From positions 124,001 to 188,000 of the forward strand of contig NZ_FYDE01000003.1 of assembly GCF_900186535.1 (NCBI RefSeq): 64,000 nt of DNA. The letters run 5' to 3'. The stretch is from Marasmitruncus massiliensis (lineage in GTDB: Bacteria; Bacillota; Clostridia; Oscillospirales; Ruminococcaceae). The translations under genes were made by a program, and so were the position numbers. This document shows, piece by piece, positions 4,727 to 60,919 of this stretch (its first letter is position 1; each line of letters begins with the position of its first letter). The notes beneath the pieces were generated by a model, which was given only the letters and a program-made list of their open reading frames with translations, searched no databases and was not told the origin of the DNA.

Positions 4727-6448
4727 ATGAAACGGTTTTCCAGCATTATATTGGTGCTTATTCTGCTGTGTTCCTCGCTGTTTTCTGTTCCTGCTTATGC
4801 CATCGGGGACGGTAATATGGATGGTGGTGGCGGCGGCATGGGAGAAGGAACGGATCAGAATTCATGGACACCGGGCAACGAAGGTGTGCGTGTCACTGTG
4901 GTTCGTGCCAGCGACCATGCCGTTGTTACAACTCCGATTGATCTGACAAACAAGACACCATCAGCAGGTATTTATCATTTTGGCAAAGTCAGCAAATTGC
5001 AGTACAACAGTGGGGCCTCGCTTAGTCCTATGAAAGGTGGATATGTCTTTAAAAACCCATCACAGGCTCTGCCCAAAATTATCAGCACCAATGGTTCCAA
5101 TAATATTGAAGCAATCAAAAGCTATTTTACTGACGAGCAGGTTATCCGCAGTATTGCGGGTCTTACCGGTATGAACTTTGACGTGCTGATAAGCGGCGAA
5201 TACAAACTGCTGATTGAACCTATCGCCTATTATAAGTTTCAAGGCGTGATGATTGCCACCACCGCAACCGAAGCGGCACTCTATGACCGGCAGCTGGGCG
5301 GTGGACTGCGCAGCAAGATGGTGTCCCTGACGCATAAGAATCTGCCATTGGCCATATTTCTTGAAGTCCCCGATCTCGGCTATCCGGCGTGGTCTGGATC
5401 AACGACAACCGCTGCTTCCGATTCCGATATTATTTCCTCACTTGGACTTGGCATCGTTCGGTTTTCCGAAGCGGAGCCTCCAAAGGTCAGCACTCACAAC
5501 TACACCTACCGTGTCAATACGGAAGTGATAACCTCGGTTACAGTTAGCGGTGGGCAGTCCGATCCTGACCACCCTGTAACAGTGCAGTTTAGTATTGGCG
5601 GCAGGACTTATACAGTCGGCAACGTCTACTATCCGAACGGCGACAGTCAGTTAGCTTGGGCACGATGGACAACACCAGCCACTCCTCAGACCATGACGAT
5701 CCATGTATCGGTGACAGGCGGTGGCAGGACAAGCGAAGGTACGATCACAGCCAATATTGTGGATCTGTCAGGGAAAGACCCACCAAATCCTGTCGCTGAT
5801 GACCGGAACGATTCTTATTCCCGCCCGAATGTTCCGAGCAATCCGCAGACAACCTCGGCCTCATGGGGCGTATGGCGGCCAAAATGGCATGCAAACTGGA
5901 TCTGGCAAAGCGACTGGAACTGGTGCAGCGATGGAAAAGGCGGCGGCCACTGGCGTGACGATGGCCATTGGGTTGACCGTGGCTGGTGGGACTTTGACTA
6001 TAACTCCTACTCGGCAAGCCTTTCCGCATCCATGAGCATAACGCCCGACGCCAAGGTACCGACCGCGTCGGGAAAGACGATGAAGTCTGGATACGGCGTC
6101 AATCAGGTTACAACCGCTAACATCAGCACCAACCAATCTTCTGCGGTGACAGGTGCGCAGACCGCCATAACGTACTTTCCGGAGTTCCAGTATCAAATCT
6201 ATTGGAGACTGCTGGACAGAACCGGTGGTGGGTATAACGCAAGGTTTGAGTTTGCGAAAAACAGGTATTCAACCTATAACCGGCGCACCCATTTCACGCC
6301 GATCTGGATGCCGGACGGGAGCTATACCCCGTACACCTATCTGGAAGATTGCTGGACGCCTGCCGGAATGCTCAGTATGAATCTGACCGATTCGGTGACG
6401 ATCAGTGGAAACTTGTGGTCGGACTGGCACGGTGCGATACGTTCCTAA
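4727..6448 (+). CDS. Large exported protein, gene split by group II intron 1
   Basis: The product has a clear signal peptide (basic start, hydrophobic core, cleavage near AYA-IG at residue 25), a Gly-rich segment, an Ig-like middle (about residues 260-340) and a strikingly Trp/His/Gly-rich stretch (about 380-425). It belongs to the conjugation region and is likely secreted or wall-associated; I recognise no enzyme. As read here the frame ends in intron sequence (GAIRS, stop 6448). Splicing 4727-6431 to 9195-9214 gives a 574-residue protein ending DWHVAPVRP. A GGAGG ribosome site precedes the ATG. Confidence 0.75.
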   Translation: MKRFSSIILVLILLCSSLFSVPAYAIGDGNMDGGGGGMGEGTDQNSWTPGNEGVRVTVVRASDHAVVTTPIDLTNKTPSAGIYHFGKVSKLQYNSGASLSPMKGGYVFKNPSQALPKIISTNGSNNIEAIKSYFTDEQVIRSIAGLTGMNFDVLISGEYKLLIEPIAYYKFQGVMIATTATEAALYDRQLGGGLRSKMVSLTHKNLPLAIFLEVPDLGYPAWSGSTTTAASDSDIISSLGLGIVRFSEAEPPKVSTHNYTYRVNTEVITSVTVSGGQSDPDHPVTVQFSIGGRTYTVGNVYYPNGDSQLAWARWTTPATPQTMTIHVSVTGGGRTSEGTITANIVDLSGKDPPNPVADDRNDSYSRPNVPSNPQTTSASWGVWRPKWHANWIWQSDWNWCSDGKGGGHWRDDGHWVDRGWWDFDYNSYSASLSASMSITPDAKVPTASGKTMKSGYGVNQVTTANISTNQSSAVTGAQTAITYFPEFQYQIYWRLLDRTGGGYNARFEFAKNRYSTYNRRTHFTPIWMPDGSYTPYTYLEDCWTPAGMLSMNLTDSVTISGNLWSDWHGAIRS

Positions 6449-9194
6449 CTGAAAAGGTTAGGCGCAAGGTCGTGTTTTAATAAACACAGTTCTTGCAGAA
6501 CTGATATTCCGATGGGTGGAATGATGGGGTAACGCCCTGAAACGCCCCCTTGATACTACGGTATGCATCAGTCGTGCAATAGATTTGATGTGTAAAGCCC
6601 GTTGAAGTCGGCAGAGAACCGCCCAAACAGGTCAAGCTGTGGAAAGCTGTGTAGAGGTACATGGTGTGGTCTATATGCCGGAGGTCTATCAATACCTATG
6701 GTGAGAATGTGGGTAGTTAGCCCGCTGACGAATTTCCGAATGAAAGGGTCTAAAAGTCGATACAATCGAAAGGTTGTAACCGTGTCATGCGGTGTGCGTG
6801 AGGATAAGTAAAATAGTGCCCATGAAAGTCCTTACGGCATTACAGGTGCCGTCCAACGTACAGGCTCAAAGGAAAACCTAAGGGTATTGGAAATTGGATA
6901 GGAATATCGGAACGTAGAAAGGTCAGGACGTGGAGCGCATTGCAGCGTAAGGAAGCGGTATCAGGGAAAGCGGTCACCGTATAACCTGATTTAATCTGGC
7001 TGAGAGCAGTGGCATAGTACCTATGAAACCGTGGAAACACGGCGGAGGGATAGCCACAAGTCGAGAATGATTCTGAAAAACAGTAAGGTAAAAGCAGACA
7101 ATATCATAGGTTCGAGTAAGACTAAGAAAGGCAGGCCCGCCATTAAAAGCGAGGTGAGCCGACTATGACAGCGACAGGCAAGCAAAGGAAAAAGGCAAAA
7201 TTACGCCATGCTGAATACTACGGCCTTCAGGAAATCTTTGATAAGCTGTATGCCGACAGCAAAAACGGTCGCATTTTCAAAGACCTTATGCCGCTGATAA
7301 CAGCGGAGGAAAATATCAAGCTGGCATACCGCAATATCAGGAAAAACAAAGGAAATAGGACAGCAGGCACAGACAACCGGACAATCGAAAATCTATCCAA
7401 GTTAAGTGATGAACGGCTGGTTTACCTTGTCCAGCGAAAATTGAGTTGGTACGAACCCCAGCCGGTGCGCAGGGTAGAAATACCGAAACCAAATGACCCG
7501 ACAAAAATGCGCCCGCTCGGTATACCAACCATCATGGACAGGCTGATACAGCAATGCGTGTTGCAGGTGCTGGAACCAATATGCGAAGCCAAATTTCACG
7601 ACAACAGTCACGGCTTTCGCCCAAACCGAAGCACTGAACACGCCATAGCGCAGGCGGTTAAAATGATGCAGTTAAGCGGACTTTCTTTTGTGGTTGACAT
7701 AGACATCAAAGGATTTTTCGATAACGTCAGTCATGGGAAACTGCTCAAGCAAATGTGGACAATGGGAATACGGGATAAAACCCTGCTCTCAATCATATCC
7801 GCAATGCTGAAAGCAGAAGTAGCCGGAATAGGATTTCCAGAAAAAGGAACACCTCAAGGCGGCGTCATTTCCCCGCTTCTTTCAAATATCGTGCTGAATG
7901 AACTGGATTGGTGGATAGCAAGCCAATGGGAAAACATGCCTACAAAACGGCAATATTCCACCGGAATTAGTGCAAACGGTGCTCCGATTCACAGCAGTCG
8001 ATATGGCTCGCTTAGAAATCTGACCAACCTGAAGGAATGCTACATTGTGCGTTATGCCGATGATTTTCGCATATTTTGCAGAAAGCGTGGCGACGCGGAA
8101 AAGGTGTTCCATGCTGTTCAGGATTGGCTTAAGCACCGTCTGGGGCTTGAAATCAATCGGGATAAATCACAAATCGTTAATCTGAAAAAGGGATACTCCG
8201 AATTCTTGGGCTTTAAGATGAAGCTGATTCGCAGAGGCGCAAAAGCAAGCGGAGAGCCAAAATATATCGTTAAAAGCCACATCACTGACAAATCAAAGGA
8301 AAAGATTGTCCGAAAAGCGCGCGCACTCATACATGATATTGAGTTCCACACAGACGGAAAAGACGGTCAATATACCGCCGTATCCATGTATAACTCATTC
8401 GTTATCGGAGTGCATAACTACTACAACATGGCTACCCATGTTCAGAAGGATTTTAGGGGAATTGCCTTTCCAATCTACAAGAGCCTGAAAGCAAGACTCC
8501 GTGAACGGCTGAAAACAAAGTCGTGGCTGGAAAGCAGGAAAATTCAATATACCATACCAAAGCACATACAGGAGGCATACGGAAAAAGTGCACAAATCCG
8601 GTTTATCGGCACCAATGATACAAAAGTGCTGGTGCCAATCGGTTATGTGTCTCATAAATATCCCCGTATGAAAGCGAGAGTCGTTAATAAATACACGCCG
8701 GAAGGCAGGGCTGCCATTCATAAAGGGCTGGAGCGGATAGATAAAAACATCCTGCACTACCTGATGAGAAACCCTGTCCGCCATAAAACGGTGGAGTTTA
8801 ATGATAATCGCCTTTCCCTGTACTGTGCACAGCATGGAAAATGTGCGGTCAGCAAACAGATTCTGGACAGAGATGAGGTTCACTGCCATCATATAGTACC
8901 AAAACACTGTGGCGGTACAGATGAATATGCGAACTTAATCATTGTTTCTGAACGGATGCACCAGCTTATTCATGCAAACAATCCTACAACGGTATTTGAA
9001 TTACTCTCGCATTTCAGCTTAACAAAACCGCAAATTAAAAAGCTCAATCAGCTTCGGAAGCTTGCAATCGTTGATAACTGCTTTATCATACCAGAAGAAA
9101 TTCCCGATGGAACGCCGTGTGAGGGGAAACTCTCATGCACGGTGTGAAGCGGGGGAAAATCCGGTGATGACATCAAAGGATTACCTATCGCTAT
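6432..9194 (+). mobile_element. Group II intron 1 (in exported-protein gene)
   Basis: The 5' end GTGCGATACG follows exon base 6431. A structured non-coding stretch of about 730 bp (domains I-IV start) leads to the intron protein gene. Domain V is a 34-nt hairpin at 9112-9145 (8-bp stem, 2-nt TG bulge, 6-bp stem with GAAA loop). Domain VI follows with stem AATCC/GGATT and a bulged A at 9183. The 3' end is placed at 9194 because it ends in AT and closes the host frame; 9188 would also be in frame. Domain V lies inside the last codons of the intron protein. All parts needed for splicing and mobility appear intact. Confidence 0.88.
7165..9147 (+). CDS. ltrA: Group II intron-encoded reverse transcriptase/maturase/HNH endonuclease
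   Basis: This 660-residue protein carries RT domains (GTDNRTIENL, PLGIPTIMDRLIQQ, HGFRPNRSTEHA, DIDIKGFFDN, GTPQGGVISPLL, catalytic YADD around residue 299), a maturase (X) domain with YNSFVIGVHNYYNMA, and a C-terminal HNH domain (CHHIVPKHCGGTDEYANL). It binds the intron RNA, helps it fold and splice, and copies it into DNA. The final codons double as intron domain V. The start ATG follows a GAGGTGAG ribosome site. Confidence 0.95.
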   Translation: MTATGKQRKKAKLRHAEYYGLQEIFDKLYADSKNGRIFKDLMPLITAEENIKLAYRNIRKNKGNRTAGTDNRTIENLSKLSDERLVYLVQRKLSWYEPQPVRRVEIPKPNDPTKMRPLGIPTIMDRLIQQCVLQVLEPICEAKFHDNSHGFRPNRSTEHAIAQAVKMMQLSGLSFVVDIDIKGFFDNVSHGKLLKQMWTMGIRDKTLLSIISAMLKAEVAGIGFPEKGTPQGGVISPLLSNIVLNELDWWIASQWENMPTKRQYSTGISANGAPIHSSRYGSLRNLTNLKECYIVRYADDFRIFCRKRGDAEKVFHAVQDWLKHRLGLEINRDKSQIVNLKKGYSEFLGFKMKLIRRGAKASGEPKYIVKSHITDKSKEKIVRKARALIHDIEFHTDGKDGQYTAVSMYNSFVIGVHNYYNMATHVQKDFRGIAFPIYKSLKARLRERLKTKSWLESRKIQYTIPKHIQEAYGKSAQIRFIGTNDTKVLVPIGYVSHKYPRMKARVVNKYTPEGRAAIHKGLERIDKNILHYLMRNPVRHKTVEFNDNRLSLYCAQHGKCAVSKQILDRDEVHCHHIVPKHCGGTDEYANLIIVSERMHQLIHANNPTTVFELLSHFSLTKPQIKKLNQLRKLAIVDNCFIIPEEIPDGTPCEGKLSCTV

Positions 9195-9303: not shown

Positions 9304-9561
9304 ATGAAAAAAAGTAAAAAGGTCTTTATTATTTTTTGCGCCGTTACACTTATGGTTTCGATGTTCTGTGTGACCGCTTATGCCGCTGGCAGCGGCGATG
9401 TCGCCGGAGCCGTTCAAGGAACATGGAAAACAGCTTCTCAGCAAATTAAAACCGTTGTCAACAATGTCGTGTTCCCGGCCATTGATCTGATTCTGGCTGT
9501 GTTTTTCTTTGCCAAATTGGGCACGGCTTATTTCGATTGTGCGCCCGTAACGGCGATGTAA
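9304..9561 (+). CDS. DUF3852-like pilin-type membrane protein, gene split by group II intron 2
   Basis: A signal-like N-terminus (MKKSKKVFIIFCAVTLMVSM... cleavage near AYAA) is followed by GSGDVAGAVQGTWKTASQQI and a hydrophobic segment. Splicing 9304-9538 to 12058-12164 restores a 113-residue protein continuing ...AYFDYRKHGQFEWAAPAILF and a last membrane helix. This fits DUF3852 proteins and the VirB2/TrbC-like position just before a VirB6-like gene. Without splicing the frame ends at 9561 in intron sequence. ATG 9304 is preferred over GTG 9292. Confidence 0.75.
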   Translation: MKKSKKVFIIFCAVTLMVSMFCVTAYAAGSGDVAGAVQGTWKTASQQIKTVVNNVVFPAIDLILAVFFFAKLGTAYFDCAPVTAM

Positions 9562-12057
9562 TAATTCTGGACTTGGCAATCCAGCGGGTAAAAGCTCATT
9601 TGCCCGTCATCAACCGGCTTACCTGAGAGGGAAACCTCATAGGGGAAAATAGCACACCGGTAAACCCATGAGTTGGGCAGTTGTCAGCCCACGACTGAAT
9701 GGGAAGATGAAACAGATGATATGAGGATAAAAGCCATACTGCCTGAAGCGCAGTCCGAGAGGTTTATGTAGGAACTTTGGCGAAAGACAGCTATCGCCAT
9801 ACCGCACAGCCACAATACATTAGTCGAGTATATGTGGGTGAGCTTCTGTGTGGCTCAACTCCGTATGGAGAAAAGGACGGAAACGCTATCCGACAATCAT
9901 CTACGCTATTATTACATTGCTAAACGGGGATTGCCTAACCCGAAATGCCGGAAATCCGGCTATGCGTAATGCCTTTGTGGTGATAAATTTCAAGGCTTTG
10001 CCAAGAAAGATGACGCTGAATATTCGGCATGGCAACGGAGCCGCCGTAGTAGTCCGAGTGCGGTAACGCCGCATACATGGCGAAGGGCGGCAGCTTGTTA
10101 TCTTAACAATAGAGAAAGGAAGGTGTGTGATACACCATGAGAAATCCAATCAATATGTTAAGCAGTTTACAGAACCACAGTAGTGACAGGTCGTATACCT
10201 TTGAACGGCTCTACCGCAATCTGTATAACCGTGAGCTGTTTTTGCTGGCTTATCAGAATATCTATGCCAGCCAAGGGAATATGACAAAAGGCACCGATGG
10301 AAAAACCATCGACGCAATGAGCCTGAATCGCATTGATGGCATGATTGCGAGCCTAAAGGACGAGAGCTATCAGCCACAACCATCAAGAAGAACCTATATC
10401 CCAAAGAAAAACGGAAAAATGCGTCCGTTGGGAATCCCTTCTTTTGACGATAAGCTGGTACAGGAATGTGTGCGGCTCCTGCTGGAAGCAGTATATGAGG
10501 GCGGTTTTGCGAAAACCTCGCATGGCTTTCGCCCAAAACATAGCTGCCATACGGCACTTAGTCAAGCACAGGTCTGTTTTACTGGCGTGAAGTGGTTTGT
10601 TGAGGGAGATATTAAAGGCTTCTTTGACAATATCAATCATGAAGTCATGATTGGGATATTAGCGGAACGTATCAAAGATGAAAAATTTCTGCGTCTTATC
10701 CGCAAGTTTCTAAAGGCTGGATATTTAGAGGATTGGCAGTACCATAACACCTACAGCGGTACGCCGCAGGGCGGTATCATCAGCCCCATTCTTGCCAACA
10801 TCTATCTGGATAAATTGGACAGGTATATGGAGGAACTGAAAAAGCGGTTTGATAAGGGAGCTGTCCGTGCTGTCTATCCTGAAACCTATGAGCTGGAGAA
10901 AAAACGTGGGGTGCTTGCCAAGAAATTGCGCAACACCAATTCAGAGGAAGAAAAGCAGGTGCTCACAGAGAAAATTCGTGAGATTGACCGTAAAAAGCTG
11001 ACGATTCCTTATTCCGACCCGTTTGATACCAGCTTTAAGCGACTTCAATATGTCCGTTATGCTGATGATTTTCTTATCGGCGTTATTGGCAGTAAAGAGG
11101 ACGCAATCGCAATAAAGGAACAGGTAAAGGCTTTTGTTGCTGACACGCTGATCTTAGAGCTGTCAGATGAAAAAACGCTGATAACCCATTCCGAAAAAAG
11201 AGCAAGGTTTTTGGGGTATGACATTTATGTACGGCGTTCTACCGCTACCAAAAAGGATAAGACAGGGCGGCTCTGCCGCCACCTGAACGGCACTGTCTGT
11301 TTGGAAATGCCAACGGAGCTTATGCGTAAAAAGCTATTGGAATACAGTGCTATGACCATTGAAAAAACGGTCTATGGCAAAGACAACTGGAAAGCGAAAG
11401 CCCGGTACTATCTCAAGGATAACGATGACCTCGAAATCCTTGACCAGTACAACAGTGAAATCAGGGGCTTCCGCAATTACTACCGTATTGCCAATAACGC
11501 CGCTCATGCCAGCTCTTTTGGCTATATCATGCAGTACAGTATGTTCAAAACCTTTGCGACCAAATATCGCACAACCATGCGCAGAATGATTGAGAAACTG
11601 CGTATCGGCAAGAACTTTGGAGTACGCTTCACTGATAAAGAGGGAAAGACAAAAACACGACTGTTTTACAATGAGGGTTTCGCAAGAAAGCCTTTGCAGA
11701 AAAATGCCGTTGTAGACGTTATCCCCCAAACTGTGATGTATTCCAGTAAAACAAGCTTGATGGCAAGGCTGTCCGCAGGGCAATGCGAGCTGTGCGGCAA
11801 AACTGACTGTGAGATTGAAATTCACCATGTCAGGAAGCTCAAAGACCTGAAAGGTAAAAGCTATTGGGAGCGCTTTATGATTGCGAGAAACCGCAAGACG
11901 CTGGCGCTCTGCTTAGACTGTCACGAAAAGTTACACTCTGGAAAACTGAATTAACAAGTGGAGAGCCGTGTGCATCGAGAGGTGCAAGCACGGTTCGGGG
12001 GCGAGTGTTCGGAAACCTGCCATAGGAATATGGTAAGGCGCTGGGCACTTAGCCCAC
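9539..12057 (+). mobile_element. Group II intron 2 (in DUF3852 gene)
   Basis: The 5' end GTGCGCCCGT begins after exon base 9538. The intron protein lies at 10137-11954. Domain V is a textbook 34-nt hairpin at 11963-11996 (GAGCCGTG ... CACGGTTC, AG bulge, loop GAGA). The 3' end is placed at 12057 (...GCCCAC), where the host frame resumes as Y-R-K-H. Its domain V and 5' end differ from introns 1 and 3, so it is a separate lineage rather than a local copy. Confidence 0.9.
10137..11954 (+). CDS. ltrA: Group II intron-encoded reverse transcriptase/maturase/HNH protein
   Basis: The 605-residue protein has the RT motifs GTDGKTIDAM, RPLGIPSFDDKLVQE, HGFRPKHSCHTAL, DIKGFFDNINH, GTPQGGIISPILANIYL and the catalytic YADD (about residue 306), with a maturase domain (NNAAHASSFGYIMQYSM). 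The C-terminal HNH domain has paired Cys (CELCGKTDCEIEIHHV ... CLDCHEKLHSG). It should promote splicing and homing of intron 2. An AAGGAAGG ribosome site lies upstream. Confidence 0.95.
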   Translation: MRNPINMLSSLQNHSSDRSYTFERLYRNLYNRELFLLAYQNIYASQGNMTKGTDGKTIDAMSLNRIDGMIASLKDESYQPQPSRRTYIPKKNGKMRPLGIPSFDDKLVQECVRLLLEAVYEGGFAKTSHGFRPKHSCHTALSQAQVCFTGVKWFVEGDIKGFFDNINHEVMIGILAERIKDEKFLRLIRKFLKAGYLEDWQYHNTYSGTPQGGIISPILANIYLDKLDRYMEELKKRFDKGAVRAVYPETYELEKKRGVLAKKLRNTNSEEEKQVLTEKIREIDRKKLTIPYSDPFDTSFKRLQYVRYADDFLIGVIGSKEDAIAIKEQVKAFVADTLILELSDEKTLITHSEKRARFLGYDIYVRRSTATKKDKTGRLCRHLNGTVCLEMPTELMRKKLLEYSAMTIEKTVYGKDNWKAKARYYLKDNDDLEILDQYNSEIRGFRNYYRIANNAAHASSFGYIMQYSMFKTFATKYRTTMRRMIEKLRIGKNFGVRFTDKEGKTKTRLFYNEGFARKPLQKNAVVDVIPQTVMYSSKTSLMARLSAGQCELCGKTDCEIEIHHVRKLKDLKGKSYWERFMIARNRKTLALCLDCHEKLHSGKLN

Positions 12058-15945: not shown

Positions 15946-16293
15946 TCATCTTACTTTTTGCAGTATTTTAATGACCTCCTCAGTTTTAAGAACCTTACCG
16001 TAAGAAACTACTTTGCCGTCTACGACGAGAGCTGGTGTTGTCATCACACCATAGGCCGCAATCTGTGAAAAATCGGTTACATGGTCAATTGTTGTATCCA
16101 TCCCCAATTGCTCCAGTGCAGCTTTGGTTGCGGCTTCAAGCTGATTGCATTTTGCGCAGCCGCTTCCCAGTACCTTGACACTTGCGCCTTCAGCTTTAGA
16201 ATTTTCAGCCCTTGCCATGTTTTCAGCATCACAGTTGCCGCCACAGCAGCTTGAGGTTTCTTCCTTTTTCTTACCAAAGTTAAATAGTGCCAT
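15946..16293 (-). CDS. Thioredoxin-like small redox protein
   Basis: A Cys-rich head (SSCCGGNC) precedes a thioredoxin/glutaredoxin-like domain with the redox motif GSGCAKCNQLE and a cis-Pro region VMTTPALVVDGKVV. This is the archaeal/bacterial small thioredoxin type (MTH895-like) commonly next to ArsP-like permeases. It probably reduces the permease partner or a bound metalloid. It is the last gene of the permease operon. AAAGGAGAA precedes its ATG. Confidence 0.85.
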   Translation of the reverse strand: MALFNFGKKKEETSSCCGGNCDAENMARAENSKAEGASVKVLGSGCAKCNQLEAATKAALEQLGMDTTIDHVTDFSQIAAYGVMTTPALVVDGKVVSYGKVLKTEEVIKILQKVR

Positions 16294-16328
16294 ATTTACA
16301 TTCTCCTTTATTAATTAATTTTTTTACA

Positions 16329-17090
16329 TCAACAGCAGTTGCTGCCGCATGAGCAGGATGACTTATTGTTCTTACCCTCAAAAAATGCTTTCAGATTATC
16401 CGGCAGTTCATATCCTCCATAATTATCGCCGCTTGGTGTGCCGAATACAATTTTCAGAATTGCTTCGGCTAACATTGTCTTGGGTGGAATTTCGTAGCTC
16501 GCGCCTTCATATTCAAATAACCGGCAATCAACATCGCTCCCGCTGATTTCACTGCAGCAACCGCAACTGTTTTCTTTGACGGACTTGCAAATATCATGTC
16601 CGTTTATACGGATTGTGGGAGAAGATATAAATTGGTACCTTTCGGCAAGCTCTGCCGTTTCTATCTCGATTTTTTTGAACTCAACCTCATATCCTGCAAG
16701 CTTTAGGGCAGGAGTAAGCGTCATCAAAATCTCATCAAGAACGCTGTCTGTCCCAATGCATCGGTCGCAGGTCTTCAGATCGAGATACAGATATTCCACC
16801 AAGACTATCTTTTCAGTGGACGCACCACATCCGCAGGAACAGCAAGATTCAACTTCATGCTGTTTGCCGTTAGACGGCATCCAACCTGTGTTATCTCCCA
16901 CATAAGTAATTGCTCCAACCGGACAGCGATTGCCACATCCATGACAATGGTCGATGCAGGATTCCGGATTTCTTACGACAGGTGATGGAGCCTTTGCGGC
17001 ATCATAGACACTGTGCGGGCACTTTGCAACACAAGTTCCGCACTCGATGCATAGAGTATAATCGATAATCGGGTACCAGCTTTTAGCCAT
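16329..17090 (-). CDS. Ferredoxin plus DUF2703 (thioredoxin-like) fusion
   Basis: Residues 1-65 carry two 4Fe-4S clusters' worth of cysteines (CIECGTCVAKCPHSVYD; CIDHCHGCGNRCPVGA). The rest is a DUF2703-type thioredoxin-like domain (LDLKTCDRCIGTDSVLDEIL; SSPTIRINGHDI) with Cys clusters, ending SCSCGSNCC. Such fusions sit with ArsP/YraQ-type permeases and ArsR in clostridia and suggest a redox or metalloid-binding role. AAAGGAGAG lies before the ATG. Confidence 0.85.
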   Translation of the reverse strand: MAKSWYPIIDYTLCIECGTCVAKCPHSVYDAAKAPSPVVRNPESCIDHCHGCGNRCPVGAITYVGDNTGWMPSNGKQHEVESCCSCGCGASTEKIVLVEYLYLDLKTCDRCIGTDSVLDEILMTLTPALKLAGYEVEFKKIEIETAELAERYQFISSPTIRINGHDICKSVKENSCGCCSEISGSDVDCRLFEYEGASYEIPPKTMLAEAILKIVFGTPSGDNYGGYELPDNLKAFFEGKNNKSSCSCGSNCC

Positions 17091-17104
17091 AATACTTCTC
17101 TCCT

Positions 17105-18118
17105 TTATACTAATAAAAATTGAAACGCGTTAAACGCATAGCCGATGATCATGATTCCTACAGCAACGATGCCGACAAATACTGCGAGCAGCTTCGGCTT
17201 GACCGCGCGACGCAGCATGATAATGGATGGAGCTGAAAGCGCGGTGACCGCCATCATGAAGGACAGGATTGTACCAAGCCCCACACCCTTATAGAACAGT
17301 GCTTCGGCAATTGGAATGGTTCCAAAAATATCTGCATACATCGGAATCCCTACCACTGTGGCAAGAATCACCGAGAAGGGATTGCGATCTCCGAGGACAG
17401 CCTGTATCAATTCGGTCGGAATCCAATCATGGATAACGGCTCCGATGCCTACGCCGATCAGCACATACAGAATGACCTTTTTCACTGTTGCCTGTACCTG
17501 TTCTTTGGCATAAACTAAGCGGTCACGTTTAGTAAGTTCGGGCGCTTCAATGTCCACGCTTCCGGCAGATTTTATAAAGTTTTCAACATACTTTTCCATT
17601 CCTAATTTTTCTATCAATGAACCGCCGATAACCGCGAGTATAAGTCCCACAATCACATAAGCCACGGCAACCTTCGTGCCGAATATGCTCATAAGAAGGA
17701 CAAGCGATCCTAAATCCACAAGCGGAGACGAAATTAGGAAAGAGAATGTAATGCCGACTGGTAGACCCGCACTGGAAAAACCTATAAACAAAGGAATGGA
17801 CGAGCACGAACAAAACGGCGTGATTGTACCCAGCAGAGCAGCTAATGTATTTGCTGTCAGGCCATGGAAACGTCCCAATATCTTTTTTGTCCGTTCCGGA
17901 GGGAAGTAGCTCTGAATGTAGCTGATAATAAAGATCAACACAGACAAAAGCACTAATATTTTGATTGTATCGTATATGAAGAACTGAACGCTTCCTCCTA
18001 AACGGCTGTTTATATCAAGACCAAGAGCAGATAATCCGCCGCCGATCAGACTGTTTAGCCACTTCATACCGAGGATCTGGCCCTGAAAAAAATCCCAGAT
18101 AGCTTTCATTATTTGCAT
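17105..18118 (-). CDS. ArsP/YraQ-type permease (DUF318)
   Basis: The 337-residue polytopic protein contains the family hallmark TPFCSCSSIPLFIGF (about residues 100-115) and SSPLVDLGSLVLL, with a second repeat (FGTIPIAEALFYKGVGLGT). These permeases export (organo)arsenicals or related compounds; the substrate here is inferred from the ArsR partner. It is the first gene of a three-gene operon whose upstream region carries an ArsR-type operator at 18157-18172. Confidence 0.85.
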   Translation of the reverse strand: MQIMKAIWDFFQGQILGMKWLNSLIGGGLSALGLDINSRLGGSVQFFIYDTIKILVLLSVLIFIISYIQSYFPPERTKKILGRFHGLTANTLAALLGTITPFCSCSSIPLFIGFSSAGLPVGITFSFLISSPLVDLGSLVLLMSIFGTKVAVAYVIVGLILAVIGGSLIEKLGMEKYVENFIKSAGSVDIEAPELTKRDRLVYAKEQVQATVKKVILYVLIGVGIGAVIHDWIPTELIQAVLGDRNPFSVILATVVGIPMYADIFGTIPIAEALFYKGVGLGTILSFMMAVTALSAPSIIMLRRAVKPKLLAVFVGIVAVGIMIIGYAFNAFQFLLV

Positions 18119-18156
18119 AGTGTGTGAACCTCACTTTCTTATAAGTAGACAATCAT

Positions 18157-18172
18157 ATCAAATATTTTTGAT
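18157..18172. promoter_or_regulatory. ArsR-type operator upstream of permease operon
   Basis: This is a perfect inverted repeat, ATCAAA-TATT-TTTGAT. The same 16 bp, with a few extra flanking bases on both sides, occurs in opposite orientation at the arsR promoter (18541-18556). Two identical sites in front of the two transcription units support joint control by the local ArsR protein. Confidence 0.8.
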
Positions 18173-18185
18173 GTGTTGTGCCTTT

Positions 18186-18211
18186 AAAAAGCCATCGTTC
18201 AGATGGCTTTT
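18186..18211 (-). terminator. arsR terminator
   Basis: On the - strand this reads as a perfect 10-bp stem (AAAAGCCATC/GATGGCTTTT) with a 5-nt loop and a T-run at its 3' side, directly at the end of arsR. Confidence 0.8.
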
Positions 18212-18527
18212 AATTTTTGTTACAGCAATTATCATCTTTAATAACTATGTTCGGTGTTGTAAGCTCCTTTAGCAGTTCTCCGGCATAGGCGCTGCCGCTT
18301 TCACTGATTTTATAGTGTGTCCATTTGCCTTCCTGGCGACTTTCCACAATGCCTGATTCGACCAGTATCTTCATGTGGTATGAAAGTGCCGACTGTCCCA
18401 TATCTAGCTGGTCGATCAAAACGCAGGCGCATTTTTCACCGCCGCGCAATAGTTCAAGTATCCGCAGACGCTTGTCATCACAAAACGCCTTGAACACTTT
18501 CGCGTGTTCCTCATAGATCGTTGTCAA
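18210..18527 (-). CDS. arsR: ArsR-family transcriptional repressor
   Basis: This winged-helix protein of about 105 residues has the sensor motif ECACVL-like GEKCACVLIDQLD, recognition helix SALSYHMKILVESGIVESRQEGKWTHYKI, and a C-terminal Cys pair (DDNCCNKN). It should repress until metalloid binds the cysteines. I chose TTG 18527 (with GGGGTG upstream), because the in-frame ATG at 18542 lies inside the operator at the expected transcription start. Its own promoter is a consensus site at 18565-18593. Confidence 0.9.
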   Translation of the reverse strand: MTTIYEEHAKVFKAFCDDKRLRILELLRGGEKCACVLIDQLDMGQSALSYHMKILVESGIVESRQEGKWTHYKISESGSAYAGELLKELTTPNIVIKDDNCCNKN

Positions 18528-18540
18528 GTTATCACCCCAC

Positions 18541-18593
18541 ATCAAAAATATTTGATATGTTATTAGTATATGCATCAAATCAAATTTTGTCAA
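18541..18593 (-). promoter_or_regulatory. arsR promoter with operator
   Basis: On the - strand: -35 TTGACA (18588-18593), 17-bp spacer, -10 TATACT (18565-18570), then the operator ATCAAATATTTTTGAT (18541-18556) at the start site. A repressor bound there would block initiation. Confidence 0.85.
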
Positions 18594-18620
18594 TATGAAA
18601 TCAGAAAGAAGGAACCTGAA

Positions 18621-20210
18621 ATGATTACCAAACAGAAAATCAAAAATGTGGAGGATGGTGAAATAAAAAAATTCCTCGACATGATCGCGCCTTCCATCAT
18701 TAAATTCAATATTGACCATTTTATCTGCGGCAATACCTTCAGGTGTGTGTGGGCGCTTCGGGAGTACCCGACATCCACCGATGAGCAGGCAATCCTCCGG
18801 CACCTCGGCGAAAAGGACGGCATCACGCTGAGAATCTATACCCGCCATGTCACGCCTGTTGAGGAAAAAAAGATCATCAGCAATGCCGCTAATAAAAACC
18901 GCATGAACAAGAGCAATACTAATGATCTGCAGCAGACCGTTCTCGCGGAAAGCAACCTGCAGGATGTGGCTACCATCGTGGCACAGATGCACCGGAACCG
19001 TGAACCGCTGCTTCACGCCGCCGTATATATCGAGCTGTCTGCTCACGATATGGATCAGCTCAAGCTGCTGCAGACCGAAGTGCTGACGGAACTGATTCGA
19101 TCCAAGCTCAATGTCGACCGTCTGATACTCCGCCAGCAGCAGGGCTTTCTCTGCGTCATGCCAAGCGGCTGGAACGTGTTCGGTGACCAGTTTGAGCGTG
19201 TGCTTCCTGCATCATCGGTCGCTAATCTTTATCCCTTCAATTACTCCGGCAAGACCGATCAGCATGGCTTTTACATCGGGCGGGACAAATTCGGTAGCAA
19301 TGTGCTGGTGGATTTCAATAAAAGAGCCGACGATAAGACCAACGCCAACATCCTCATCCTCGGCAATTCCGGTCAGGGAAAGAGCTATCTTCTCAAGCTC
19401 ATTTTGTGTAATCTGAGGGAATCCGGCATGAATGTGATTTGCCTCGATCCCGAAATGGAGTACGAGGATCTCACCAATAACCTCGGCGGCTGCTTCATCG
19501 ACTTGATGTCCGGAGAGCATATCATCAATGTTCTGGAACCAAAAACATGGGACGAGAACGGCAGCCCGGATGACAAAGACGCACCGCAGGCATTCCGCTG
19601 TACATCCAAACTCAGCCAGCACATCAGCTTCCTCAAGGACTTTTTCAGGACATACAAGGATTTCTCAGACCGGCAGATCGATGTGATTGAAATCATGCTC
19701 CAGAAGCTCTATGAAAAATGGGGTATCACCGATCGCAGTAACTTTGACCGGCTGAAGCCTACGGATTATCCCATCCTATCCGATCTTTACGCTTTGATTG
19801 AGGCCGAATATAAAGATTTTGATACGAGCAGCCGCCAGCTCTATACCGCCGAACTTCTGCAGGAAATCCTCCTTGGCCTCCACTCCCTGTGTAAAGGGTC
19901 GGATGCCAAATTCTTTGACGGCCACACCAACATCACGGACGTCAGCTTCATTACCTTCGGAGTCAAGGGCTTGCTGCAGGCAAGTAAAAGTATCCGCAAC
20001 GCCATGCTGTTTAATGTTCTTTCCTACATGAGCAACGAGCTGCTGACCACCGGAAACACCGCTGCCAGCATCGATGAATTTTATTTGTTCCTGACCAATC
20101 TCACAGCAGTGGAATATGTCCGAAACTTTATGAAGCGTGTCCGTAAAAAGGACAGCGCCGTGATCCTCGCCAGTCAAAACCTCGAAGATTGTGCGAAACG
20201 TTGTGCATAA
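18621..20210 (+). CDS. virB4: VirB4/TraE conjugation ATPase, gene split by group II intron 3
   Basis: Residues 1-523 come from 18621-20190, then splicing to 23001-23254 gives a 607-residue ATPase. Walker A GNSGQGKS lies near residues 248-255, with NVICLDPEMEY after it and the second acidic motif ASIDEFYLFL near 493. VirB4 drives substrate transfer and pilus assembly at the inner face of the membrane. Unspliced, the frame ends in intron sequence (LEDCAKRCA, stop 20210). ATG 18621 has AAGAAGGA upstream; the earlier ATG at 18570 lies in the arsR promoter. Confidence 0.88.
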   Translation: MITKQKIKNVEDGEIKKFLDMIAPSIIKFNIDHFICGNTFRCVWALREYPTSTDEQAILRHLGEKDGITLRIYTRHVTPVEEKKIISNAANKNRMNKSNTNDLQQTVLAESNLQDVATIVAQMHRNREPLLHAAVYIELSAHDMDQLKLLQTEVLTELIRSKLNVDRLILRQQQGFLCVMPSGWNVFGDQFERVLPASSVANLYPFNYSGKTDQHGFYIGRDKFGSNVLVDFNKRADDKTNANILILGNSGQGKSYLLKLILCNLRESGMNVICLDPEMEYEDLTNNLGGCFIDLMSGEHIINVLEPKTWDENGSPDDKDAPQAFRCTSKLSQHISFLKDFFRTYKDFSDRQIDVIEIMLQKLYEKWGITDRSNFDRLKPTDYPILSDLYALIEAEYKDFDTSSRQLYTAELLQEILLGLHSLCKGSDAKFFDGHTNITDVSFITFGVKGLLQASKSIRNAMLFNVLSYMSNELLTTGNTAASIDEFYLFLTNLTAVEYVRNFMKRVRKKDSAVILASQNLEDCAKRCA

Positions 20211-20911
20211 ATTTAGCTTAACAGGCTAAGTGAACAGCACCCGTCAGTTGCACTAAAACATTAGAAAATACTGATGAGAACTTAAATCTCGAATTCAAGG
20301 GGGCAGTACCCTTGCCGTGCAGAATTAACGCCGATGATGAAATGTTAAAATCTATGGCGGCACGAGAAGATGATACTCCACTGTGCGTTAGGCGACTGTA
20401 ATCGCCTATGGTACAAAGCGTGGTAAAGTCGTAATTTGATGTTCTTGGCAACAAGGGCTATATAATGCGGTCATCTTGAACCTATGGTTATGATAGAAAA
20501 AGTTATGCAGCATCGTAAAGGTTTAGGGTCGAAAGACCAGCAAATGAAAAGGGGTATTTCCGTAGTCTTTGGGGGTACTCGCTCACGCTTGAAATAACGT
20601 GGGAAAGCATACGCCAACTGTAATTCAAAGTATGCTCAATTTTCACGGTGTAAGGTAACAACCTAAGGGTTCAGCATAAAAAGATAGAGATTTAGGAACG
20701 TTTGAGAGCCTGCACACGGAGTGTTACAGCACGATGAAATGTGCAGGAAGTCAGCCGTCCCATAGTAGTCCGAGATTGGGAAAGCCAATTACATGAGGCT
20801 GAAATGCCTCACGGCGAAGGGGACGAGTCAATTTGATTAACAGATTTCAAAACCGAAAATCCGTAACTCCCTGAAATATGGGTAGCGAACTGCAAAGGAA
20901 GTGATTGCTTT

Positions 20912-22789
20912 GTGCATATAAACGCTGGATTTTCAAACGAAACAGAGCTTAGAAAATTAACCGATCTGCTGTACGAAAAATCCAAACAAGGCACTACGTT
21001 CACAGGTTTAATGGAAGCGATTTGTAATGAAGTGACAATCATTACGGCAATTCACAATATCAAAGCAAACGCAGGCAGTAAAACCGCAGGGGTTGATCGC
21101 AACAAAATGGACAAGTACCTGCAAATGCAAAAAGAAGCGGTGATAGAACTAATTTCTCGCACTGTAAGCAACTATAAGCCCAAGCCCGCCAAGCGAATCT
21201 ACATCGAAAAGGCGAACGGTAAACAAAGACCTCTGGGCATTCCTACTGTGCTTGACCGCATCATACAGGAGTGTATCAGAATTATCATTGAACCAATATG
21301 CGAAGCAAGATTTTATCCGCATAGCTATGGGTTCAGACCGTATCGGGCACAAAAGCACGCTGTACGAGACATCGTGAACATCATTAACGGTTCAAACAAG
21401 TCGGACAGTATGCCGACCTATGCGTTAGAGGGCGATATAAAAGGCTGTTTTGACAACATCAATCACAGAATACTTCTAAGTAAACTATGGAAAATGGGAG
21501 TACACGACAAGCGACTTTTAAAAATCATAAGTCAAATGCTAAAAGCTGGATACATGGAAAAAGACCTATTTTTCGACACATCGGTTGGAACTGGTCAGGG
21601 TAGCGTCCTGTCTCCGTTGCTGGCAAATGTATATCTCAACGATTTTGATTGGTACGTCGGACGCAAATACTATCACCCTTTCCCGAAACTCAACCTAAAA
21701 AGCAGTGACATGAGAAAGCTACGGCAACAGGGTGTTTTCCCGAAATATAACATCCGTTTTGCCGATGATTGGGTTATCCTCACCACTGCTGAAAAGGAAG
21801 CACACAGGCTGAAAAAGGAGCTCACCAAATACTTCAAGCACCGTCTGAAGCTTGATATATCCGAAGAAAAGACGGTCGTAACAAACATGAAGTGTGATGG
21901 GGTGAAGTTTCTTGGGTTCAAAATCAGAGTAGCGAAAAGCGAGAAAAACAAGGGCAAACAGATAGTTCGTTGGGTGGCAAAACCCTACCCTGACTACATC
22001 AAATTGGGCAAAAAGGTTAAAAACTTGCGCTCAGCAATTCAGGAAATTAAGGAGCATAAGGCACTGAATTGTCGGGTGGCTCAAATTGAATATGTGAATT
22101 CGGTCATCATGGGCATATCGGAATATATCAAAAGCAGTATCAGTTCCCATGCCTTTAACATGATTGATTACAGGGTAAACAACATGGTGTTTGCAGTTTG
22201 GAAGCGAATGTACCCCAAGAATTATTTGCAGATGAAGGTGGAGTTGCAGAAACTGAGCAACCTTCCTGCAAGGCACGAGGGGCATGAAACCAAAACTTTT
22301 GCTGTGAATTATCAAGGTAAGTGGGTAGGTATCACCTATGCATTTCTCACCCATGTGCAGTATGAAAAGAAACCCTTTAACCAAAATATGACACCGTATA
22401 CTGCCGAGGGGAGAATGCTCTACCAGAAATACTGTTCTGCTAAAAAGCAATTTCTGCGTGACCGCCCTGCTCTGTATAGCCCAGACCTACTCAAAATGTC
22501 AGTCTACAAAAGCAAATACAATTTTGAATACTACATGAACCGTGAATACGCCTTTAACCGAGATAAAATGGTTTGTCGCTGCTGCAAACAACCACTTTTA
22601 CACACAGAACAACGTGAATGTCACCACGTTAATCCTACCCTTCCATTGAATCAACTGAACAAAGTTCCCAATTTAGCGTGGGTTTGTACCGAATGTCATA
22701 AACAGATACACGGTAAGGAAATTCCACAAGGTACAGAAGTCAAAATCAAATGCAAAATCATTTCGTTTAGAGATAAACTTAACAACTGA
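20912..22789 (+). CDS. ltrA: Group II intron-encoded reverse transcriptase/maturase/HNH protein
   Basis: The 625-residue protein has RT motifs (AGVDRNKMD, RPLGIPTVLDRIIQE, YGFRPYRAQKHAV, GDIKGCFDNINH, GTGQGSVLSPLLANVYL), a maturase domain and a C-terminal HNH domain (CRCCKQPLLHTEQRECHHV ... CTECHKQIHG). The catalytic motif is FADD rather than the more usual YADD; both aspartates are present. The start is GTG 20912 behind AAGGAAGTGA. It is more like the protein of intron 1 than that of intron 2 in intron context. Confidence 0.94.
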   Translation: MHINAGFSNETELRKLTDLLYEKSKQGTTFTGLMEAICNEVTIITAIHNIKANAGSKTAGVDRNKMDKYLQMQKEAVIELISRTVSNYKPKPAKRIYIEKANGKQRPLGIPTVLDRIIQECIRIIIEPICEARFYPHSYGFRPYRAQKHAVRDIVNIINGSNKSDSMPTYALEGDIKGCFDNINHRILLSKLWKMGVHDKRLLKIISQMLKAGYMEKDLFFDTSVGTGQGSVLSPLLANVYLNDFDWYVGRKYYHPFPKLNLKSSDMRKLRQQGVFPKYNIRFADDWVILTTAEKEAHRLKKELTKYFKHRLKLDISEEKTVVTNMKCDGVKFLGFKIRVAKSEKNKGKQIVRWVAKPYPDYIKLGKKVKNLRSAIQEIKEHKALNCRVAQIEYVNSVIMGISEYIKSSISSHAFNMIDYRVNNMVFAVWKRMYPKNYLQMKVELQKLSNLPARHEGHETKTFAVNYQGKWVGITYAFLTHVQYEKKPFNQNMTPYTAEGRMLYQKYCSAKKQFLRDRPALYSPDLLKMSVYKSKYNFEYYMNREYAFNRDKMVCRCCKQPLLHTEQRECHHVNPTLPLNQLNKVPNLAWVCTECHKQIHGKEIPQGTEVKIKCKIISFRDKLNN

Positions 22790-22944
22790 AATCTGTTAAG
22801 CGACCATACGCCGTGAGGTCTATGGTTGTATGAAAGCCCAAGAGGGCTATGAAATCAAATTGATGGTGCGCCGGGTGCGCTGAAAGGCGCATGCCCGGTG
22901 TGAGGTGGGGGAAAATTCGGAGATAATTTCAAAGAATTACCTAT

Positions 22945-23000
22945 CACAACAAAGTATCTACCCTGCGTATGCCTTACGGCAACGCAGGGATGGTACACAT
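22945..23000 (+). ncRNA. 3' extension hairpin of intron 3
   Basis: Downstream of domain VI lies a stem of at least 8 bp (CCCTGCGT at 22961-22968 with ACGCAGGG at 22982-22989; loop ATGCCTTACGGCA), flanked by TCTA/TGGTA. It is non-coding in the virB4 frame and is inferred to be intron RNA because splicing after it restores the protein. Similar stem-loop extensions are known from Bacillus cereus-group introns such as B.c.I4. Confidence 0.65.
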
Positions 23001-23254
23001 TTGCCATCCCCGGAATTGCCGAGCTGACAAAGCCGCTGTTTTCTATTCCAACCCATGCATTTTTGTTCAACGCAGGCAATATTGACAAGCGGTTTTATAT
23101 GGACACCCTCCAGCTTGAAGAAAGCGAATACAATCTGATCTGCTTTCCCCAGCGTGGTGTATGCCTGTACAAGTGTGGTAATGAACGGTACAATCTCGCT
23201 GTTCATGCTCCTATCTATAAGGAAAAGCTCTTCGGAAAGGCGGGCGGACGATAA
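23001..23254 (+). other. virB4: 3' exon of virB4
   Basis: In the spliced frame this encodes F-AIPGIAELTKPLFSIPTHAF and the rest of the conserved VirB4 C-terminus (LQLEESEYNL, RGVCLYKCGNERYN, EKLFGKAGGR), stop TAA 23252-23254, which overlaps the ATG of the next gene by one base. Confidence 0.88.
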
Positions 23255-60432: not shown

Positions 60433-60919
60433 CTTGAAAACTGAATATCCGATGACCTAAATACGTTAGCTGACGGTTCCGTGACGAGCGGAGCAGCGAC
60501 CTCGGAGGATGCGCCAAGACCACCTGTGGGTTACAGCAGAAAAAACGAAACCACTATTTCACTTGTTCGTGTTGTTTTCTGCCATACCCATCAAAGACGG
60601 CCAAATAAGGTGCAAAGCGTTACCCATCCGACCGTAAAACAGGCTTTGGCAGCCTGTTTCGCAATGATCCCGTCAGCCTACAATGATACTTCTGTCCCGT
60701 CCTAAAGTCGAGCGTGAAAAAACCGTCGCAACAAAGGAGGGCAGCCAGCGGAGATCCCGGTGGGGGTGAAAGTCCCATGATGCGGTGTAGCTAACCGCAG
60801 TTTAGGTTGTCGCCATTTCGTGCTTGGGGAGTAGTGTCGAATTAAGCACAGAAAAAGTAAGACTTAATGTTAGAAGCAATGGGGATCGCTCTGCCCAAAA
60901 CAGGGCGATCCCTATTTTT
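60433..60919 (+). ncRNA. Candidate structured RNA region
   Basis: The gap 60367-60953 has no convincing gene. It contains at least six stem-loops: TGGGT..GCAGAAAA / TTTTCTGC..ACCCA (60527-60590), AAACAGGCT/AGCCTGTTT (60637-60659), TGGG/CCCA (60761-60777), TGCGGT/ACCGCA (60781-60799), GTGCTT/AAGCAC (60820-60849), and the terminator GGGATCGC-t-CTG/CAG-g-GCGATCCC with TATTTTTG (60881-60919). A weak promoter (TTGAAA, 18 bp, TAAATA) starts near 60433. The segment GGGGTGAAAGTCCC recalls group II intron domain I, so a remnant is an alternative. Confidence 0.45.

Follow-up and report, generated by a model that had tools for sequence, protein, structure and literature searches.

In the 64,000-nt stretch of Marasmitruncus massiliensis DNA analysed here (the window), a virB4 gene is interrupted by a group II intron that appears to continue beyond domain VI. 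Where does this intron end, and what is the segment that separates domain VI from exon 2? Exon 1 of virB4 (18570–20190; exons and intron are all on the + strand), which begins at the start given by the ORF tool, ends with ...SQNLED followed by a T, and its assignment to the VirB4 family is based on matches to NF045975 and NF045971, both under the curated cut-offs. Exon 2 (23001–23254) completes a phenylalanine codon, continues with AIPGIAELTKPLF and reaches its stop after AGGR, resembling the C-terminal part of intronless VirB4 relatives. The intron between them (20191–23000, 2810 nt, GTGCG...ACAT), delimited by an identical second copy and by the exon frame, starts with GTGCGAAACG. It contains domain I (20276–20481; Rfam RF02004, 45.8 bits, E = 1.2e-6) and a 625-residue reverse transcriptase/maturase with a GTG start (20912–22789; RVT_1 and TIGR04416, the latter with a profile score of 310.6 bits, above the cut-off of 300). 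Domain V (22868–22901) was located with Rfam RF00029 and by folding, and the domain VI helix (22905–22947) by folding; the Rfam match to both domains spans 22866–22950 with 55.1 bits. The features of a group II retroelement are thus all present, namely domains V and VI with a bulged A, a GUGYG start, an AY end and a maturase.

The interrupted virB4 gene appears to belong to an integrative conjugative element, which holds another two group II introns on the same strand (window 6432–9194 and about 9539–12057), each with its own maturase and a plain-looking 3′ end, making three in this one element. Directly upstream of virB4 is a block of minus-strand ORFs (15946–18540), by eye permease-like, thioredoxin-like and an ArsR-type regulator; beyond the block lies a 213-aa ORF, a relative of which is located close to virB4 in the other element. 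A pemK RNA motif is found at window 60680–60780 (65.9 bits).

Three AY ends are available near the end of domain VI, at 22944, 22947 and 22950, and exon 2 is out of frame with all three, as the preliminary description of this locus had stated; intron ends at 22947 or 22950 would produce GAT TAA, a stop at once. With an end at 23000, the virB4 frame continues as LED-F and then AIPGIAELTKPLFSIPTH. The shift of the splice site beyond domain VI that had been proposed is therefore supported, with the predicted intron end placed at 23000, 50 nt past 22950. The position of the branch point had to be revised. It had been put at 22939, which is 4 nt off, because in the minimum-energy fold A 22943 is the one base that bulges out of the 3′ strand of domain VI towards the intron end (position 82 of the folded stretch 22862–23000; the base itself was confirmed). 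From this predicted bulged branch-point A to the splice site there are 57 nt with an end at 23000 and 7 nt with an end at 22950, the typical distance being 6–7 nt according to passages of a 2022 review (PMC9294222).

A second copy of the intron lies on another contig of the same genome (locus L002). Window positions 20191–23000 are identical to L002 1497–4306 over all 2810 nt, and a base-by-base check showed that the identity continues just 1 nt outside each end. The flanks of L002 are a diverged virB4 allele, whose exon 1 product is 77% identical to that of the window. Since this copy is identical to exactly 23000 in a diverged allele, the 50-nt segment is part of the mobile unit. Across the intron, the window reads GAT T|GTGCG...ACAT|TT GCC and L002 reads GAC T|GTGCG...ACAT|TC AAC; with an end at 23000, and only then, LED followed by F would be restored in both virB4 alleles. 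Relatives of virB4 turned up in 11 of the 147 genomes of an order-level search, one of them the own genome. At all 12 virB4 loci in the 10 other genomes, where the junctions were read, the 50-nt segment is missing, and ED (ND in L055) runs straight into F and then into a conserved xLTKPLF-like sequence. The comparison with intronless relatives proposed in the preliminary description therefore does not refute the late splice site. A VirB4-like locus of the own genome (L048, 29% identity) was left out of the empty sites because the motif was not found in it. A free-standing repeat was considered as the source of the hairpin and rejected; within the own genome the hairpin, with up to three mismatches, occurs only in the two intron copies.

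Maturase searches gave 20 loci, a further search gave matches in 15 of 295 genomes, and the 3′ ends were then read. Extended introns were recognised, besides the two own copies, at L003, L004, L024, L009, L018, L022 and L013, which makes nine copies spread over eight genomes; besides the own genome and G217 there are six named hosts, all clostridial. The introns of L003 and L004 interrupt virB4 at the same codon as the window intron, that of L024 another VirB4 type (TQNVED|L), those of L009, L018 and L022 a DEAH-type helicase gene (DExHxYKN|LF), and that of L013 an exon resembling, by eye, a coupling protein. In the two VirB4 types the related introns sit at QNLED/QNVED. The codon just after the DEAH-like DExHxYKN motif is occupied in L012 and in the extended L009, L018 and L022, and also by plain introns in L005, L006, L007, L010, L011, L014, L021 and L025. 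These plain introns share the insertion codon with the extended ones and have related maturases and the same GTGCGAAACG start, but they end right after domain VI (for example with CGCTAT) and have no extension. The difference can be seen in the distance that separates the branch-point A from a conserved Lys-Met codon of the helicase, which is 23 nt in seven plain introns and 73, 73 and 70 nt in the extended L018, L022 and L009, respectively, with L008 (exon 2 unlike helicase), L012 (exon 2 differs) and L025 (viewed separately, plain) left out of this tabulation. On our reading, the homing targets are the most conserved stretches of mobile-element ATPase genes. In the pair L005 and L072, the maturase of an intron on a scaffold deposited as phage (MT840029.1) lies at zero branch length from that of Clostridium sp. 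AT4, and both introns have an extra hairpin in the domain VI loop.

Some of these relatives may be inactive, two of them extended, because the maturase reading frame is broken up in L014, L018 and L020 and contains one stop in L024. Such broken maturases would fit the idea that the window intron is itself dead, with neither 3′ site in use and virB4 merely disrupted. We consider this highly improbable, given that two identical copies imply recent movement, that the maturase frame is open in both, that domains V and VI as well as the extension fold well, and that both exon pairs remain in frame.

What, then, is the 50-nt segment? The 3′ extension (22951–23000), recognised by its fold, its covariation and its presence in the second copy, folds with −27.0 kcal/mol (z = −6.3), and none of 200 shuffled sequences was equally stable; all six S1-less extensions that were folded (S1 being a stem known from Bacilli, see below) give a stable structure. 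The perfect 8-bp stem pointed out earlier, CCCUGCGU/ACGCAGGG, is real and forms part of a longer hairpin (22954–22996), which consists of 5 bp, a 2 × 2 internal loop (UA/AU), 8 bp, a bulged A (22969), 4 bp and a UUAC loop, and which is followed by the terminal ACAU (22997–23000), with the predicted 3′ splice site after 23000 as the exon frame indicates. The seven distinct clostridial extensions all follow a common plan of a 5-bp base, a UA/RU internal loop, 8 bp, a bulged A, 4 bp, a small loop and ACAU, except that L024 has 3 bp above the bulged A instead of 4 and that L018 and L022 have one added unpaired base by the basal stem. All seven have the bulged A in this position, 8 bp from the internal loop, where it may serve as a contact point.

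For the covariation count these seven extensions were used, L002 and L004 being dropped as identical here to the window and to L003, respectively. Of the alignment cells, 97.5% are paired versus 77.5% in shuffled alignments; 11 of 17 pairs are altered on both sides versus 5.9 (1 of 500 shuffles reaches 11), there are 24 double-changed cells versus 8.1 (0 of 500 reach 24), and the covariation score is 0.664 versus 0.260 (0 of 500 reach it). Shifting the partners by 1–3 columns lowers the pairing to 22.7–55.8%. A weaker measure, the number of further pair types, gives 18 versus 15.1, a value attained by 34 of 500 shuffles. Judging from these aligned sequences, the pairing of the hairpin is maintained while its sequence changes, with strong compensatory change. 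In a rival reading, the intron ends normally at 22950, and the 50 nt come from something unrelated, for instance a small palindromic repeat, which inserted next to the intron and broke virB4; the segment is a near-perfect palindrome and the AC end at 22950 looks normal. However, both genomic copies and the seven copies in seven other genomes share a matching hairpin located at one and the same point past domain VI, and its pairing is preserved by compensatory change, which makes such an insertion extremely improbable.

Another possibility is that both 22950 and 23000 serve as alternative 3′ splice sites. The AC end at 22950 exists, and its use would join GAT T to AA with an immediate stop and a truncated VirB4, a way in which the hairpin could adjust how much VirB4 is made; passages of PMC4424553 report alternative 3′ splice sites for B.a.I2 and C.te.I1. 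Nevertheless, the proximal site is not kept by all extended relatives. The linker at the position of S1 is short and unpaired in the seven distinct clostridial extensions, and that of L009 is different and shorter. Alternative splicing at both sites is thus quite unlikely, and a single late site at 23000 is retained as the preferred reading.

Extensions of this kind have been described in Bacilli. According to passages of Tourasse et al. 2011 (PMC3261151), extensions of 53–70 nt made up of stems S1 and S2 occur in class B introns of Bacilli, S1 being highly conserved in sequence and S2 having an invariant internal loop, a putative tetraloop receptor (11-nt). The same passages report that splicing of Bacillus domain VII introns was measured, and that removal of the extension strongly inhibits the second step in B.th.I6a and gives a larger share of linear intron in B.c.I4. 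A domain VII is recognised as an extra stretch of approximately 50–70 nt that separates domain VI from the 3′ splice site, a range that includes the 50 nt of the window extension. S1 folds in all four Bacillales extensions (B.psf.I1, L068, L135 and L136), whereas it is absent from the seven distinct clostridial ones. Above the basal stem, the S2 internal loop is UA or UAC/AU in 4/4 Bacillales, the loop of the S2-like hairpin is UA/RU in 7/7 clostridial extensions, and three of the four Bacillales extensions also end in ACAU, B.psf.I1 being the exception. The window maturase is 38% identical to that of B.psf.I1 over its length and falls in the same tree clade, and on this identity the window intron would be classed as class B-like.

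As for the likeness to B.c.I4 that had been suggested, the position of the extension agrees, as does the S2-like hairpin with its UA-containing internal loop, but stem S1 is missing here. Compared with B.c.I4, B.th.I6 and B.psf.I1 together, the window intron shares an extension between domain VI and the 3′ splice site, an S2-like hairpin with a UA-containing internal loop just over the basal stem, movement of the extension with the intron, and conjugation-type genes among the hosts; it differs in the missing S1, in its occurrence in Clostridia instead of Bacilli and in the length of 50 versus 53–70 nt. Since the S2-like hairpin is kept and S1 is missing, it is an S1-less variant of the Bacillus-type domain VII. 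C.te.I1 of Clostridium tetani is likewise a clostridial group II intron with unusual 3′ splice-site use; as described in passages of PMC4424553, it has several DV/DVI repeats for alternative splicing and no maturase gene, and domain VII is unmentioned for it in those passages.

How widespread is this form? In a maturase tree of 36 rows, the S1-less hairpin needs 4 changes, which are forced by the supported branches too, and any domain VII needs 7; the trees leave out L017 (frame broken), and a second tree is also without 12 more distant maturases. The extended L018 and L022 and the plain L025 are close relatives at the same insertion site. This scatter over the intron tree implies repeated gain, loss or exchange of the hairpin. 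Tentatively, and with somewhat less than even confidence, domain VII may be regarded as a transferable module, in which the S2 hairpin alone would be enough to move the 3′ splice site, S1 was added in Bacillales (or lost in Clostridia), and the module was gained, lost or swapped several times among introns of one homing site. Searched with a covariance model (R1), 26 of the 398 genomes from the phylum gave matches (E 1e-8), as did 16 of 400 from the family of G125 and 3 of 295 from that of G217 (E 1e-18); the genome samples may overlap, and weak matches are lost to the filters. Scores typical of extended introns were reached by two genomes alone, the own genome (160 bits) and G217 (151.8 bits), both of them within the model; no other listed match exceeds 96.2 bits, and the form accordingly looks rare among the sampled genomes. 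Among phages, AR9 and LPJP1 match the query past domain VI, yet neither has an extension on reading; the AR9 intron looks plain, as does L134, also read among the phage-search rows. In viral contigs, two maturase searches confirmed no relative, the 16-nt pattern running from domain VI into the extension gave 64 stretches, none with an upstream domain VI motif, and the S1 pattern gave 0 matches. Among plasmids, no record covered 80% of the window DVI-extension query.

A small domain I hairpin (window 20662–20705) was also considered as a partner of the extension inside the ribozyme. In the alignment of the 5′ region (columns about 537–552), 10 of 10 plain introns of the clade have it, whereas 6 of 7 extended ones do not. 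We make no claim on it, because the plain outgroups L016, L019 and L020 also appear without it and, once kinship is allowed for, only two of four independent pairs differ (p = 0.5, not significant).

Taken as a whole, the locus very probably contains a mobile group II intron of class B-like type in which the 3′ splice site would be displaced to 50 nt past the usual domain VI end, because a 50-nt one-hairpin domain sits between domain VI and the splice site. Group II introns splice by branching followed by exon ligation. Here, the first step would be an attack of the bulged A 22943 on the 5′ splice site (20190/20191). The hairpin would then fold aside in the second step and offer the terminal ACAU as the splice junction, for which plain relatives would use a short tail, such as UAU. 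Splicing after 23000 would restore virB4, and the intron RNA with its maturase would home into empty virB4 sites, carrying the hairpin along. By analogy, the hairpin likely has a second-step role like that in Bacillus introns.

The extension type itself is already known from Bacillus and relatives; the S1-less domain VII in Clostridia appears to be new. In the literature searched, which took in few subscription papers, there was no earlier report of domain VII-type introns outside Bacilli or of an S1-less form. The function of domain VII extensions is called a mystery in passages of the 2022 review (PMC9294222). The one-hairpin form, together with plain relatives at the same codon, provides natural matched pairs for studying roles in the second step or in 3′ splice-site choice. 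The form also matters for genome annotation, since conjugation genes would come out truncated or frameshifted if introns of this kind were cut where domain VI ends.
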